From positions 1-36,014 of IMG/VR virus record IMGVR_UViG_3300007735_000674: a DNA stretch of 36,014 nt, one strand, 5' to 3'. Shown here in pieces: positions 2,180 through 7,525 of the stretch. Every line of letters starts with the position of its first letter. The first letter of the stretch is position 1. The DNA is from a virus. The position numbers and the translations under genes were made by a program. The notes under the pieces were generated by a model, which was not told where the DNA came from, searched no databases, and saw only the letters and a list, made by a program, of their open reading frames with translations.

Positions 2180-3568
2180 ATGGCTTTATTTGACATTTTC
2201 AAACAAAAACAAGTCAAAGAATCCAATTCAATGTTTGGGCAAACCGCCCTGGGCAACAATGTATTGTGGGGCAGCAGCAACAAATACAACAGCGCCAACA
2301 GCCAGATTCTCTATGTCACCACGGGCAGCAGCACAGACGCTGGCAGACCCGTAGACATGAGCATGATGAGCCGTAATTCCACAATTATGGCTTGCGTGGG
2401 AGCAAAAGCCAGGGCAATGGCTCAATTGCCAATCCGAATTATGTGCGAAATGGACGATGGCAGCTACCACGATGCCGTCAAAAGCTCAAAGGTAAGCGCC
2501 AGGGACAAAGCCAAAGCCAAGCAAGTGGCTTATCTATTAGGCAACCCAAACAATTTCCAAAGTGCCTACGAATTTCTGTATCAGTACATCATGTGGCATG
2601 AACTGAGTGGCGAGGTGTATATCCTGTGGTGGCGCAAAGACCAAGAAAGCAGCACTCAAACCCCGTTGGAAATGTACGTTTTTGATAGCACTTTAATCAG
2701 TACAACGGTGAATGTAACCAGATACCCTAGCTATAGACTTAGCACCCCAGCATACGGATTTAACCGTGACGAACCACTTGCAGCTCATCAAGTTATGCAC
2801 CTAGTGGACGCTGCTTGGCAAGGAAATGGCGGCTTTAATAAAGGCATTTTGGCAGCAGAATTGATTGGCCTAGACCAAGATATTGACCTGTACGCCAACT
2901 ATGTGATGCAAAACGGGGCCAAACCAAGCGGAATGTTTGTGACTGAAAACGTAATCCCCGATGGCAAATACAAGGAAATTGCGGCACGGCTCAAAGAGGC
3001 ATGGTCATCAATGACGGGCAGCCGCAACGCAGACCCAAGCAAGCCAGGGCAAGGAATGTTGTTAGATCAGGGCATGAAATACCAGCCGCTGGATATGCTG
3101 ACGCTGCAAGACACAGACTGCGCCAAACTCAAAGAACAAACCATGAAACGCATTTGCGGTTTGTTTGGCGTGCCGCCAGCAATGATTGGCATTGCCGATC
3201 AGAAATACAACAATACCCAGACTATGCTGGATGAATTTTACAAAAGCAGTATGTACCCGCTGCTGGTAAATGTTCAGCAAAAGCTAAAACAGCACCTGCT
3301 TGTCGGATACCCGAATTTGTGTGTAGAATTTGACACAAGGGCATTTTTGCGTGGTTCACCCGTAGATCAAATGAATTTTTCGGTGGCTGGGGTAAACGCT
3401 GGCATAATGACCGCAAATGAGGCACGGGAATATCTTGGAATGAAAAACATGGACGGTGCAGACGAATTGAAAGCAGGAAAGCCTGGTGATACAATTCCTG
3501 GTAGCAGCCCTCAAGATACTGGCGGTGGCGGCGGTGGACAGACAAGGAAAATGAACATTGGCAAATAA
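2180..3568 (+). CDS. Portal protein (HK97 family)
   Basis: A 462-residue protein that would form the dodecameric DNA entry ring at one head vertex. The gene has the expected place between terL and the protease, with an AAGGGGA ribosome binding site eight bases upstream. Family-typical stretches are NSTIMACVGAKARAMAQLP (about residue 64 on), the KSGMF-like KPSGMF, a TDCAKLKEQTMKRICGLFGVPP segment and the following DQKYNNTQTMLDEFY. The C-terminus ends in a Gly-rich low-complexity tail, common in portals and usually disordered. I am confident in the role. The exact subfamily cannot be settled by eye. Confidence 0.93.
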   Translation: MALFDIFKQKQVKESNSMFGQTALGNNVLWGSSNKYNSANSQILYVTTGSSTDAGRPVDMSMMSRNSTIMACVGAKARAMAQLPIRIMCEMDDGSYHDAVKSSKVSARDKAKAKQVAYLLGNPNNFQSAYEFLYQYIMWHELSGEVYILWWRKDQESSTQTPLEMYVFDSTLISTTVNVTRYPSYRLSTPAYGFNRDEPLAAHQVMHLVDAAWQGNGGFNKGILAAELIGLDQDIDLYANYVMQNGAKPSGMFVTENVIPDGKYKEIAARLKEAWSSMTGSRNADPSKPGQGMLLDQGMKYQPLDMLTLQDTDCAKLKEQTMKRICGLFGVPPAMIGIADQKYNNTQTMLDEFYKSSMYPLLVNVQQKLKQHLLVGYPNLCVEFDTRAFLRGSPVDQMNFSVAGVNAGIMTANEAREYLGMKNMDGADELKAGKPGDTIPGSSPQDTGGGGGGQTRKMNIGK

Positions 3569-3672: not shown

Positions 3673-4428
3673 ATGAACGAAATGCTAATTGTCTGCGAAG
3701 CAAAACTAAATCTGAACCAGCAACCCGGCACAATTGAGGCTAGGGTCACAAGCTGGGGGCCACGAGAAGGCGCAGACGGGCGCAAGTTTAATTATCAGCC
3801 CGAAGGCTTTGCAGACTGGGCCAAAGAGTTTGAGGCAATGGGCAGGCCGTTACCCATGTTTGTCAATCACTCAGCAGATGCAATCCCCGTTGGCGAATGG
3901 ATGCGCTTTGAGTTTGACAATACCGGCATGACTGCCAGCGGCAGGCTGTACACCAACACCACGCAAGGCAGCGACCTTTACAACGTGATGAAAGAATCGC
4001 CAGCCATGTTTGGCGGGGTATCTGTTGGCGCTTACGCAGAATCGTATCAAATGGTCAACGCTGACGGCGAACCAGACCAATCTGACGAAGCATATTTTCA
4101 AATTACCAAGGGCGGCTTGCGGGAAGTGTCCGTGGTCATGTACCCAAACAATCCCGAAGCCTGCGTCAGCAAGCTGGAATACTTTAGGCCCGATGGGTCT
4201 GCAAATCTAAAGATTTTGGAGCAAGCCTTGCGTGATGCTGGGCTATCTAAAAGTGATGCGGTTGCCGCTGCATCGACTTTCAAAAAGGTGCTGGAGCAGC
4301 GTGATGTTGTCCAAATCCCAAATGAAATTGCGCCGAACCAGAGCGACTCTGATGCGGAGGCAACCATACTCGCAGCCCTTGAGCAGCGGGAATTACTGCA
4401 AACTTTGTCTAACCGCCTAAGGAAATAA
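3673..4428 (+). CDS. Prohead maturation protease (peptidase S78, HK97 family)
   Basis: A 251-residue serine protease that removes scaffold regions of the capsid protein before DNA packaging. The expected catalytic His lies in MFVNHSAD (His66) and the nucleophile in FGGVSVGA (Ser117), the spacing usual for S78 proteases. The C-terminal third (after about residue 165) is helical, charged and probably dispensable or scaffold-like. The gene lies directly before the major capsid gene, separated by two bases. An ACGAGGTAATCC leader gives a ribosome binding site at the chosen ATG. Confidence 0.9.
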   Translation: MNEMLIVCEAKLNLNQQPGTIEARVTSWGPREGADGRKFNYQPEGFADWAKEFEAMGRPLPMFVNHSADAIPVGEWMRFEFDNTGMTASGRLYTNTTQGSDLYNVMKESPAMFGGVSVGAYAESYQMVNADGEPDQSDEAYFQITKGGLREVSVVMYPNNPEACVSKLEYFRPDGSANLKILEQALRDAGLSKSDAVAAASTFKKVLEQRDVVQIPNEIAPNQSDSDAEATILAALEQRELLQTLSNRLRK

Positions 4429-4430
4429 TC

Positions 4431-5771
4431 ATGTCCCAAGTCATCATTGAAAAACTTGACGCTATCGAAGCCGCCAACGCCGCTAAGATTGCTGAAGTTA
4501 CCAGCGCAGCTACTGCTGCAATTGACACTGCCAAAAATGAAATGGCTGAGAAAATCTCGGCGCTAGAGGCAAAAATTAGCACTCTGCAAATGCCGCCTGT
4601 TATCCGCATTGCTAAAACAATTCGCACTGACGTTAATCGTTCTGTGCGTGAGCAACTGAAATCATTTTATTCCGCAAACAATCGGGTGGAAAAACCACTG
4701 AAGATTTTTGCCGATGAAAGTCAATATTTGGCCTACATGAACGAAGCCTCTGCACTAACCGGCGGCGGCAATGGTATTGGTGGACGCACTGGCTACGACC
4801 CTGTGTTTGCAGCAATGCGCTTGGCTAATCCCATGCGTGGTTTGAGCCGCACTGTTGTGACTGATGGCTCTAGCTATCAATTCCGCAGCAAAACCGGCAA
4901 TGCTGGCGCAACCTGGGGATATACCGTTCAAAACAACGGCGGCGCAACCACGCAAGACATGAATATCTGGCAACTGGTGCTGCAAGATTTGAACGTGCAA
5001 TTCCCTGTCCGCACTGCTGCATTGGACGACATCGATGGGTTGGAAGGCACCATTGTTGACGATATGCTAATGGAGTTTGCCCAGGCCGAAGCGCAATCCA
5101 TGATTCAAAACAGCGATCAAACCAACTCGCCTAATACCTACGGCGGCACATCCGGTTTGCGTGGTCTAGATCAGTATCCTGGCGCAAATGCTACCTATAC
5201 CGGAGGCACTACGAGCGCAGCGGCATACGGCACCAGCGGCACAGGCAGTGCTACCGGCTTGCACAGCATTGCAACTTACGATCAATTGACTAGCAACGTC
5301 AACACCGTTGGCGCAAATGCAATAACTTACAAAGACGTTATCAATCTTTGCTATGCATTGCCGCAACAATATTGGACGACTAGCGCCTGCTTTATGGTTA
5401 ACCCTGTGCTGGCTCAAGCCATCCGTGGCTTGCAAGACACCAACGGGCGTCCAATTTTCAACTCAATGGAATCGTTGAATCCAGACGGCATCATCGGGCA
5501 ATTGTTGGGCTTTAATGTCGTGATGAACAAGTATCTCGACAACCCAAGCCAAGCAACTACCGGCAGCGTAGGAACCACATCGTTCTATCCGATGTATTTT
5601 GGTGATTGGCAGCTTGGTCACAGCATCATTGATCGGATGGACATGGTTATGCGCCGCTACGACCAGACGACCCCTGGCTCAATTACGTTCTATGGCGAAA
5701 AACGGCTGGCAACCAGCATCCGTGACCCGAACGCCATCATCCGTTATCGCTCGACCGGAACATCGACCTAA
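4431..5771 (+). CDS. Major capsid protein, HK97 fold, with N-terminal scaffold region
   Basis: A 446-residue head shell protein. Residues 1-50 are an Ala/Glu/Lys-rich coiled coil like the delta domain that the S78 protease removes. The body starts around residue 104 (EASALTGGGNGIGGRT) and includes KTGNAG, the VQFPVRTAALDDIDGLE stretch and a C-terminal TPGSITFYGEKR...AIIRYR. A Ser/Thr/Gly-rich insert lies at about residues 235-280. It is followed by a perfect intrinsic terminator and then by a shorter paralogue. The upstream protease and the N-terminal coiled coil mark it as the main shell protein. Confidence 0.93.
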   Translation: MSQVIIEKLDAIEAANAAKIAEVTSAATAAIDTAKNEMAEKISALEAKISTLQMPPVIRIAKTIRTDVNRSVREQLKSFYSANNRVEKPLKIFADESQYLAYMNEASALTGGGNGIGGRTGYDPVFAAMRLANPMRGLSRTVVTDGSSYQFRSKTGNAGATWGYTVQNNGGATTQDMNIWQLVLQDLNVQFPVRTAALDDIDGLEGTIVDDMLMEFAQAEAQSMIQNSDQTNSPNTYGGTSGLRGLDQYPGANATYTGGTTSAAAYGTSGTGSATGLHSIATYDQLTSNVNTVGANAITYKDVINLCYALPQQYWTTSACFMVNPVLAQAIRGLQDTNGRPIFNSMESLNPDGIIGQLLGFNVVMNKYLDNPSQATTGSVGTTSFYPMYFGDWQLGHSIIDRMDMVMRRYDQTTPGSITFYGEKRLATSIRDPNAIIRYRSTGTST

Positions 5772-5780
5772 GTTGCCATT

Positions 5781-5812
5781 GCAGGGGGGGTTGGACTTCC
5801 CCTGCCTTTTTT
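5781..5812 (+). terminator. Intrinsic terminator between the two capsid genes
   Basis: A seven-base perfect stem, GCAGGGG (5781-5787) with CCCCTGC (5799-5805), an 11-base loop and then a CTTTTTT run. It lies ten bases after the major capsid stop and 20 bases before the second capsid gene. Since no promoter is evident before 5832, partial termination would lower expression of everything downstream relative to the capsid protein. Confidence 0.75.
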
Positions 5813-5831
5813 AACTATTCGGGAAAATCAA

Positions 5832-6863
5832 ATGACTACAGCACGCATTTTGTCGGGCATTAAACAAACGCTACACGAAGGCCATGCTGTCAAAATTGAT
5901 TTGACCGAAGCCTCTGCCCTCACTGGTTCTGGAAACGAAATCGGTGGGCGCACTTTCTTTGATAATGCTTTTGCTGCACTGCGATTTGGCAACCCCATCC
6001 GAGAAGCAGCAAGAGTAATTCCCGCCTTTGGCTCTAGCGTGCAATTTGTCGCAAAGACAGGTAACGCCGCAAACTCCACAAACCCGTGGCTTTATGCCGC
6101 TAGTCCAAACACCGGCTCACCCAACACCGCCACAAGCATTTGGCAATTGCCAACCCGTGTCGTTAGCGCCAGCCTGCCCGTGCGAACAGCTGTAATGTCA
6201 GACATTAATTATCTGAATGAAACCCTTGTTGAAGACATGATGCTTGAATTTGCTCAGTTGGAAGGTGCCAGCATGATTCTTAACAACGATCAAACCGGCT
6301 CTACAACGACAAGCACCGGAAGCACCAATGGTTTGCGTGGCTTGAATTATTATGCTAGCGGCTCTGCTGCATATGGCTCATCTGGCACAGCAATCACGGA
6401 CGGCATCCATACTCTATTGACGGTATCGCAAAATGCCGCTGCAATTTCTTACGATGATTTAGTAAATCTGGCTCAAAATTTCCCAGCACAATATTGGAGT
6501 TTGCCAGGAAATGCTTGGATGATGCACCCAGACACAATTCACGACTTGCGCCAACTTAAAGCAGCAAGCAGCGGTAACGCCAGCCGATTGTTAGCAGAAA
6601 CAGGCGATGACGATGGCGGCGCTGTAGCTAATTTGTTTGGCTGGCCTGTGATTCCAAACCCAAACATGGAAACCATTGCCGCAGGAAAATTTACGATTTA
6701 CCTTGCTAACTGGCCCAGGTTTGTAACTATTGCAGACGTAGAGGAAATGACTGTGCAAGCAATGGAGCAAAGCGCACCAGGATTTATCACTCTGTACGCC
6801 GAACGCCGAATGGTGTCTACCGTGCGTGACCCGTTTGCAGGCGTGCGTTTGGTTGGGGTCTAA
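5832..6863 (+). CDS. Second HK97-fold capsid protein paralogue, lacking the scaffold region
   Basis: A 343-residue protein clearly related to the preceding capsid protein over its body. Shared blocks include EASALTG-GN-IGGRT, FAA-RF/L-NP, K-TGNA, SLPVRTA, DI--L--T-V-DM-LEFAQ-E--SMI-N-DQT, NGLRGL, ISYDDLVNL, and a C-terminal APGFITLYAERR followed by VRDP. Only about 26 residues precede the homology, so the roughly 100-residue scaffold/N-arm of its neighbour is missing. It could be a minor shell, vertex or decoration-like subunit, or a degenerate duplicate kept for another role. It has a GGGAAA ribosome binding site upstream and an intact frame with no internal stop. Confidence 0.85.
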   Translation: MTTARILSGIKQTLHEGHAVKIDLTEASALTGSGNEIGGRTFFDNAFAALRFGNPIREAARVIPAFGSSVQFVAKTGNAANSTNPWLYAASPNTGSPNTATSIWQLPTRVVSASLPVRTAVMSDINYLNETLVEDMMLEFAQLEGASMILNNDQTGSTTTSTGSTNGLRGLNYYASGSAAYGSSGTAITDGIHTLLTVSQNAAAISYDDLVNLAQNFPAQYWSLPGNAWMMHPDTIHDLRQLKAASSGNASRLLAETGDDDGGAVANLFGWPVIPNPNMETIAAGKFTIYLANWPRFVTIADVEEMTVQAMEQSAPGFITLYAERRMVSTVRDPFAGVRLVGV

Positions 6864-6865
6864 GA

Positions 6866-7525
6866 ATGTCCAGCGAAATCCTTGGCGCACAAGGTGGGGC
6901 AACCCGCAACCCGTTCAATTACGCAAAAGTTGAGCAGGTAAATCGGGATGTAGTGACGCCCTGGCTCACGCTGGATGAAATTACTCAACAGCTAAATCTG
7001 TTTGATGACGAAAGCCAAGATGACTATCTGAGCAGCTTAGAACTGGCAACCAGGTTTGCCATAGAAGATTATCTCGGGATGTCAATATTTTCCATGACGT
7101 ATCGGGTTTGGTACGGCGCTCAAGGAACCATTACCGCACCAATGGCTCTGGACTTGCCTGAAGTCAGCCAAAATCTATATCCTACGCAGGCAGGCTTAAC
7201 AATCAACTCGGTTGGCTACTACAACAACAGCGCACCGCCAACACTTACTTTATTAACAGCATCAACTTACTATTACGATGCCAGCGGCAACCGGGTTATC
7301 TTAACCAGTCTGCCCACAATCACTAGTGACATGGCAAACCCGATTGTCGTCAACTACACCACCGCAGCCAATCCGCTACAGACGTATCCAGCAATTAAAC
7401 AAGCTGGCCTGCTGCTGCTTACGCACTTGTACAACCAGCGCAGCAACAGCACAGAGGCATCGTTAAAAAATATCCCATTTGGCGTAGACACCTTGTTGCG
7501 CCCGTACAAAGAATTGGTCATGTAA
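6866..7525 (+). CDS. Head-tail connector (HK97 gp6-like adaptor)
   Basis: A 219-residue protein in the adaptor position, right after the capsid genes. The segment LTLDEITQQLNLFDDESQDD (about residues 33-52), followed by the helix LSSLELATRFAIEDYLG, is the usual signature of gp6-like connectors: LT-LDE---HLR--, then a helix and ---A---IE--L. The C-terminal PAIKQAGLLLLTHLYNQRS helix fits too. It would sit under the portal ring. The start lies two bases after the capsid paralogue stop. Confidence 0.8.
   Translation: MSSEILGAQGGATRNPFNYAKVEQVNRDVVTPWLTLDEITQQLNLFDDESQDDYLSSLELATRFAIEDYLGMSIFSMTYRVWYGAQGTITAPMALDLPEVSQNLYPTQAGLTINSVGYYNNSAPPTLTLLTASTYYYDASGNRVILTSLPTITSDMANPIVVNYTTAANPLQTYPAIKQAGLLLLTHLYNQRSNSTEASLKNIPFGVDTLLRPYKELVM

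Follow-up and report, generated by a model that had tools for sequence, protein, structure and literature searches.

Adjacent capsid paralogues with unequal N-terminal arms suggest a two-component head in a group of small HK97-type phages

The use of two different coat proteins in one phage head is best known from T4, a phage unrelated to the ones described here, in which gp23 makes hexamers and gp24 makes 11 pentamers (PMC9958956). During T4 maturation, gp23 sheds a 65-residue propeptide and gp24 sheds only 10 residues; gp24 is ~20% identical to gp23 and is probably a gp23 duplicate, and point mutations in gene 23 can bypass gp24 (PMC9958956). This separate vertex protein is an exception, as the major capsid protein also fills the pentamers in other well-studied phages (PMC9958956). 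A Bacillus siphovirus has also been annotated with two distinct major capsid proteins (PMC12786184). In HK97, by comparison, the product of one gene, gp5, makes both hexamers and pentamers. The gene transfer agent RcGTA has a single capsid gene as well.

The capsid gene pair and its N-terminal arms

We analyzed the 36,014-bp virus record IMGVR_UViG_3300007735_000674 (referred to as the window), which has a siphophage-like head and tail module in the order terminase, portal, S78 protease, MCP1, MCP2, connector, and tail genes (Table 1). Both MCP1 and MCP2 are members of the PF05065 Phage_capsid family, with profile scores of 106.2 and 76.2 bits, respectively, against a cut-off of 24.2, and they are 36% identical to each other by BLASTP (197 bits, E = 5e-64), with residues 103 to 438 of MCP1 aligned to residues 24 to 339 of MCP2. 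Because this alignment begins at MCP1 residue 103, MCP2 is without the N-terminal arm, which is predicted to be helical and is a likely scaffold; this bears out a sequence-only reading of this DNA in which the second protein was described as the body of the first without an arm of ~100 residues. The gaps between the protease and MCP1 genes and between the MCP2 and connector genes are each 2 bp, and the gap between the two capsid genes is 60 bp and contains a hairpin followed by a T-run.

Table 1. Head gene features in the window, with the evidence for each assignment
Feature	Coordinates	Strand	Evidence
Portal protein	2180..3568	+	PF04860, E 5.2e-59
Prohead protease, Peptidase_S78	3673..4428	+	PF04586, E 1.5e-9; phrog_80 head maturation protease
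MCP1, major capsid protein of HK97 type, carrying an N-terminal arm, 446 aa	4431..5771	+	PF05065, E 2.6e-30
MCP1 N-terminal arm, residues 1-102, likely delta/scaffold propeptide	4431..4736	+	Outside MCP2 alignment; predicted helix
Intrinsic terminator, stem-loop 5781-5805 plus T-run	5781..5812	+	Hairpin scan; spacer conservation
MCP2, capsid paralogue without N-terminal arm, 343 aa	5832..6863	+	PF05065, E 3.8e-21
Head-tail connector (gp6-like)	6866..7525	+	PF05135, E 1.9e-6; phrog_40

In a joint alignment with HK97 gp5, the HK97 cleavage position (K103/S104) corresponds to residues 107/108 of MCP1 and 28/29 of MCP2, with alanine in the S104 column of both proteins (A108 and A29, respectively). 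There are ~107 residues upstream of the cleavage-equivalent position in MCP1 and ~28 in MCP2, and the ~28 residues that remain show that loss of the pro-region in MCP2 is extensive but incomplete. Across 72 representatives, 97 to 115 residues precede the reference column in MCP1 (with one outlier, caused by an early start codon), compared to 19 to 42 in MCP2 (with one outlier, caused by an added module). The remnant pro-region of MCP2 is a short helix that is conserved, with the sequence MTITERILSGIKQTLETG in many members, and is predicted to span residues 2 to 16. For MCP1, AlphaFold predicts a long helix at residues 2 to 51, a block with a pLDDT of ~60 to 77 in a model that is otherwise mostly poor. 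The AlphaFold models of MCP1 and MCP2, made from 19-row alignments, have mean pLDDT values of 37 and 41 and are too poor to superpose.

Conservation of the pair and of the terminator between its genes

We collected at least 279 loci, including the window and Methylophilaceae phage P19250A, from four viral contig scans (IMG/VR), bacterial genome assemblies, and a phage collection; some contigs count as more than one locus in this total, and the queries were MCP1 and MCP2 themselves, so that distant single-gene relatives could escape such searches. Among the matches listed, MCP1 is followed by MCP2 in 259 of 279 loci, and in the remaining 20 a contig end lies at, or no more than ~220 bp from, the surviving gene. 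Since every exception is a contig-end case, the pairing is obligate, the outcome of a survey that the sequence-only reading had proposed as a check. At the DNA level there are at least 187 distinct complete pairs, and the occurrence of the pair in hundreds of contigs and one isolate rules out a sequencing or assembly artifact.

The median dN/dS values, which are approximate (Nei-Gojobori), are 0.16 for MCP1 and 0.18 for MCP2, and these low values show that both genes are under purifying selection and that MCP2 is maintained. Together with the intact pairs across loci, they exclude the possibility that MCP2 is a decaying gene or pseudogene, and the earlier claim of a second shell protein, to which decay of this gene in relatives would have been fatal, survives. 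Several apparent length outliers among the MCP1 and MCP2 proteins (L002, L003, L006, L134, L135, and L161) reflect only early in-frame start codons, and the others contain real insertions. At two loci (L189 and L157), an open reading frame of 199 to 209 aa, which by eye resembles a GIY-YIG homing endonuclease, lies between MCP1 and MCP2 and widens the spacer to ~645 bp.

We also compared the two families with five single-gene capsids (HK97, Bcep176, VW-6S, Azospirillum Cd, and RHph_X2_25) as outgroups. The MCP1 and MCP2 proteins each form a clade (support of 0.974 and 0.977, respectively) within a joint clade (support of 0.991), showing that the duplication is older than the whole group and separate from that of T4. 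Thus, the pair did not arise by a recent duplication confined to the genome of the window. Each outgroup locus has one capsid gene, in agreement with the earlier statement that most HK97-type phages carry a single shell gene. Representatives share on average 71% identity in MCP1 and 60% in MCP2, and the divergence of one is correlated with that of the other (Mantel r = 0.60, with none of 2000 permutations as high), as would be expected of either co-evolving partners or simple co-inheritance.

The MCP2 proteins of some relatives contain added domains. Those of one subclade (L203, L204, L206, L207, and L208) gained an extra N-terminal module of ~100 residues; in L203 (L203:5380-5691), the only one of the five compared with PHROGs, this module matches phrog_2859. 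Elsewhere, phrog_2859 is found at the N terminus of protease-capsid fusions in Roseobacter phage CRP-406 and Synechococcus phage S-CBS1 and, in a Vibrio phage, at the N terminus of a coiled-coil protein whose gene lies a short distance upstream of that for the capsid protein. The presence of the same module on MCP2 and on protease-capsid fusions ties MCP2 to head assembly. Two other MCP2 proteins, those of L272 (2870-4105) and L275 (4976-6214), contain ~65 residues of inserted beta-repeat in the E-loop region, after a KTGNA or NTGNA motif, and the L272 insert is related to phage tail-fiber repeats. The MCP1 length outliers contained no insertion of this kind. These sequences suggest that MCP2 tolerates additional domains, which might be expected of a scarce subunit.

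The hairpin between the capsid genes of the window has 11 pairs in our scan, is followed by CTTTTTT, and ranks first among the terminator-like sites of the first 19 kb. By itself, its folding energy of -19.3 kcal/mol is unexceptional (z = -1.25, with 21 of 200 shuffles equally good), and the significance of the terminator comes from its conservation across spacers rather than from folding energy alone. In a strict terminator scan (at least 6 pairs, 5 G-C pairs, and 4 T in 9), 156 of 161 distinct MCP1/MCP2 spacers were positive, compared to 13 of 1610 dinucleotide shuffles, and there were 94 distinct terminator stem sequences. The same scan was positive at none of 150 sites downstream of MCP2 and at 1 of 132 just upstream of MCP1. 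Thus, the strong hairpin and T-run noted earlier between the capsid genes are both present in the window and kept in the group. The spacers of L195, L203, L204, and L259 (4 of 161) retain the G-C hairpin and lack the T-run, and in these loci the hairpin may serve a function beyond termination.

The simplest reading of this arrangement is that the terminator would end high-level capsid expression, with read-through reaching MCP2, the connector, and the tail genes; MCP2, encoded downstream of the terminator like these other genes, would for that reason be produced in smaller amounts. In HK97, a putative terminator is annotated immediately downstream of the sole capsid gene, and by this comparison MCP2 would occupy the low-expression side. 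The effective number of codons is lower in MCP1 than in MCP2 in 69 of 72 representatives (means of 38.6 and 42.8, respectively), a stronger codon bias that agrees with higher MCP1 expression, although amino acid composition can also cause such a difference.

Candidate roles of MCP2 in the head

We propose that both head proteins descend from one HK97-type capsid gene that was duplicated long ago, that MCP1 retained the scaffold arm and would form the hexameric lattice, and that MCP2, having lost most of the arm, would be built into proheads together with MCP1, with the eleven vertices other than the portal vertex as the most probable site of MCP2 pentamers. That the head has two components is likely. 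We have moderate confidence in its fuller form, in which hexamers of MCP1 would be combined with eleven pentamers of MCP2, made at a lower level, in the manner of T4 gp23 and gp24. Paralogy and arm-length asymmetry as in T4, together with signs of unequal expression, make a vertex role our best guess, and we infer lower MCP2 expression, the presence of MCP2 in the virion, and its vertex position. A T=7 head is typical near 40 kb (cf. PMC8814770). Such a head would need 55 copies in pentamers and 360 in hexamers. A two-component shell with a set ratio had been proposed from the window by itself; the co-occurrence of the genes, purifying selection, the terminator, and codon bias give good support to a shell with unequally expressed components, and a set ratio would be an extrapolation from them. 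Of the placements suggested at that time for a minor subunit, at vertices or hexamer centers, the T4 parallel favors the vertices, as a matter of analogy, and the alternative of a maturation-independent form found no support.

It is also conceivable, although we think it unlikely, that MCP2 is a minor lattice subunit mixed into hexamers, at specific or random sites, rather than a pentamer protein, and that it might, for instance, relieve scaffold crowding or present accessory domains. MCP2 retains the whole HK97 body, and the E-loop inserts of L272 and L275 would suit display on the capsid; however, in the literature searched we found no example of a paralogue that co-assembles into the hexamers of a tailed phage, and the T4 precedent favors vertices (PMC9958956). 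MCP2 might instead have been derived from the capsid fold to serve in the neck or at the portal vertex, either in a ring or in completion of the head, which would fit the location of its gene immediately upstream of the gene for the gp6-like connector, with both genes past the terminator. However, gene position by itself is weak evidence, MCP2 has a full-length capsid body under capsid-like constraint, and we know of no precedent for an HK97-fold neck ring; we consider this role improbable. The domain-sized insertions found in MCP2, and not in MCP1, could instead point to a cement or decoration protein on the outside of the shell in which the HK97 fold has been preserved, but 66 alignment columns are conserved in both families and are spread across the whole fold, which suggests that lattice contacts are retained; we consider such a function improbable as well. 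Least probable of all is that MCP2 forms its own particle (a smaller shell, an inner compartment, or an encapsulin-like structure) without MCP1, which is raised because arm-less HK97-fold proteins can self-assemble and because the conserved N-terminal helix of MCP2 formally resembles that of encapsulins, but which is opposed by the lack of a recognizable cargo gene adjoining MCP2, its location inside the head operon, and its one-to-one pairing with MCP1; if true, the phage would carry an encapsulin-like shell beside a normal capsid gene.

Our results suggest that the heads of a widespread group of freshwater phages contain an abundant coat protein and a scarce one, the latter most likely dedicated to the corners. 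If so, this second, independent duplication, found in small HK97-type phages and present in hundreds of freshwater contigs, would show that hexamer and pentamer duties can be divided within the HK97 lineage itself. The group would also offer a small natural system in which to ask why a scaffold arm is needed in hexamers yet dispensable in a partner, and a structural role would be assigned to a protein labeled hypothetical in P19250A, the only cultured relative found.

Comparison with described capsid systems

P19250A (KX815270) has the same pair, gp5 and gp6, in the same order, with a terminator between them; identity is 58.7% between MCP1 and gp5 and 57% between MCP2 and gp6. The P19250A gp5 is annotated as a gene transfer agent capsid protein. 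The MCP2 orthologue, gp6 (KX815270.1; L001:6066-7124), is annotated as a hypothetical protein and could be re-annotated as a capsid paralogue. We found no description of the MCP1/MCP2 pairing, including that of gp5 and gp6, and no virion proteomics for such phages in the literature searched. OM43 phage Venkman was considered as a carrier of the same pair and ruled out, as its annotation shows one capsid gene and a separate scaffold gene.

Among solved structures, the RcGTA capsid protein Rcc01687 (PDB 6TBA) is the closest by sequence to both MCP1 and MCP2 (E = 2.9e-7 and 2e-4, respectively), although the similarity is remote. HK97 shares the gene order of terminase, portal, protease, capsid, and connector, but the phages described here have a second capsid gene past the terminator. 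In alignments, Q/S and G of MCP1 and MCP2 stand opposite K169 and N356, which take part in the HK97 cross-link, while E363 is conserved.

The nearest system whose workings are established is that of T4. As in T4, one genome carries a pair of paralogous capsid proteins, which for MCP1 and MCP2 are of HK97 type by profile match, and in both systems the minor or presumed minor paralogue has a much shorter N-terminal pro-region, with the lengths taken here from alignment. In contrast to gp23 and gp24, MCP1 and MCP2 belong to PF05065, are encoded in genomes of 36 to 39 kb, have a higher identity to each other (36% compared to ~20%), and are products of adjacent genes with a conserved terminator between them that arose by an independent duplication; their division into lattice and vertex proteins is a proposal. 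Membership of the T4 Gp23 family by descent was rejected, since PF05065 was the only Pfam match and the two proteins form sister clades relative to five PF05065-type outgroups. Thus, MCP1 and MCP2 may resemble T4 gp23 and gp24 at most in function and not in descent.
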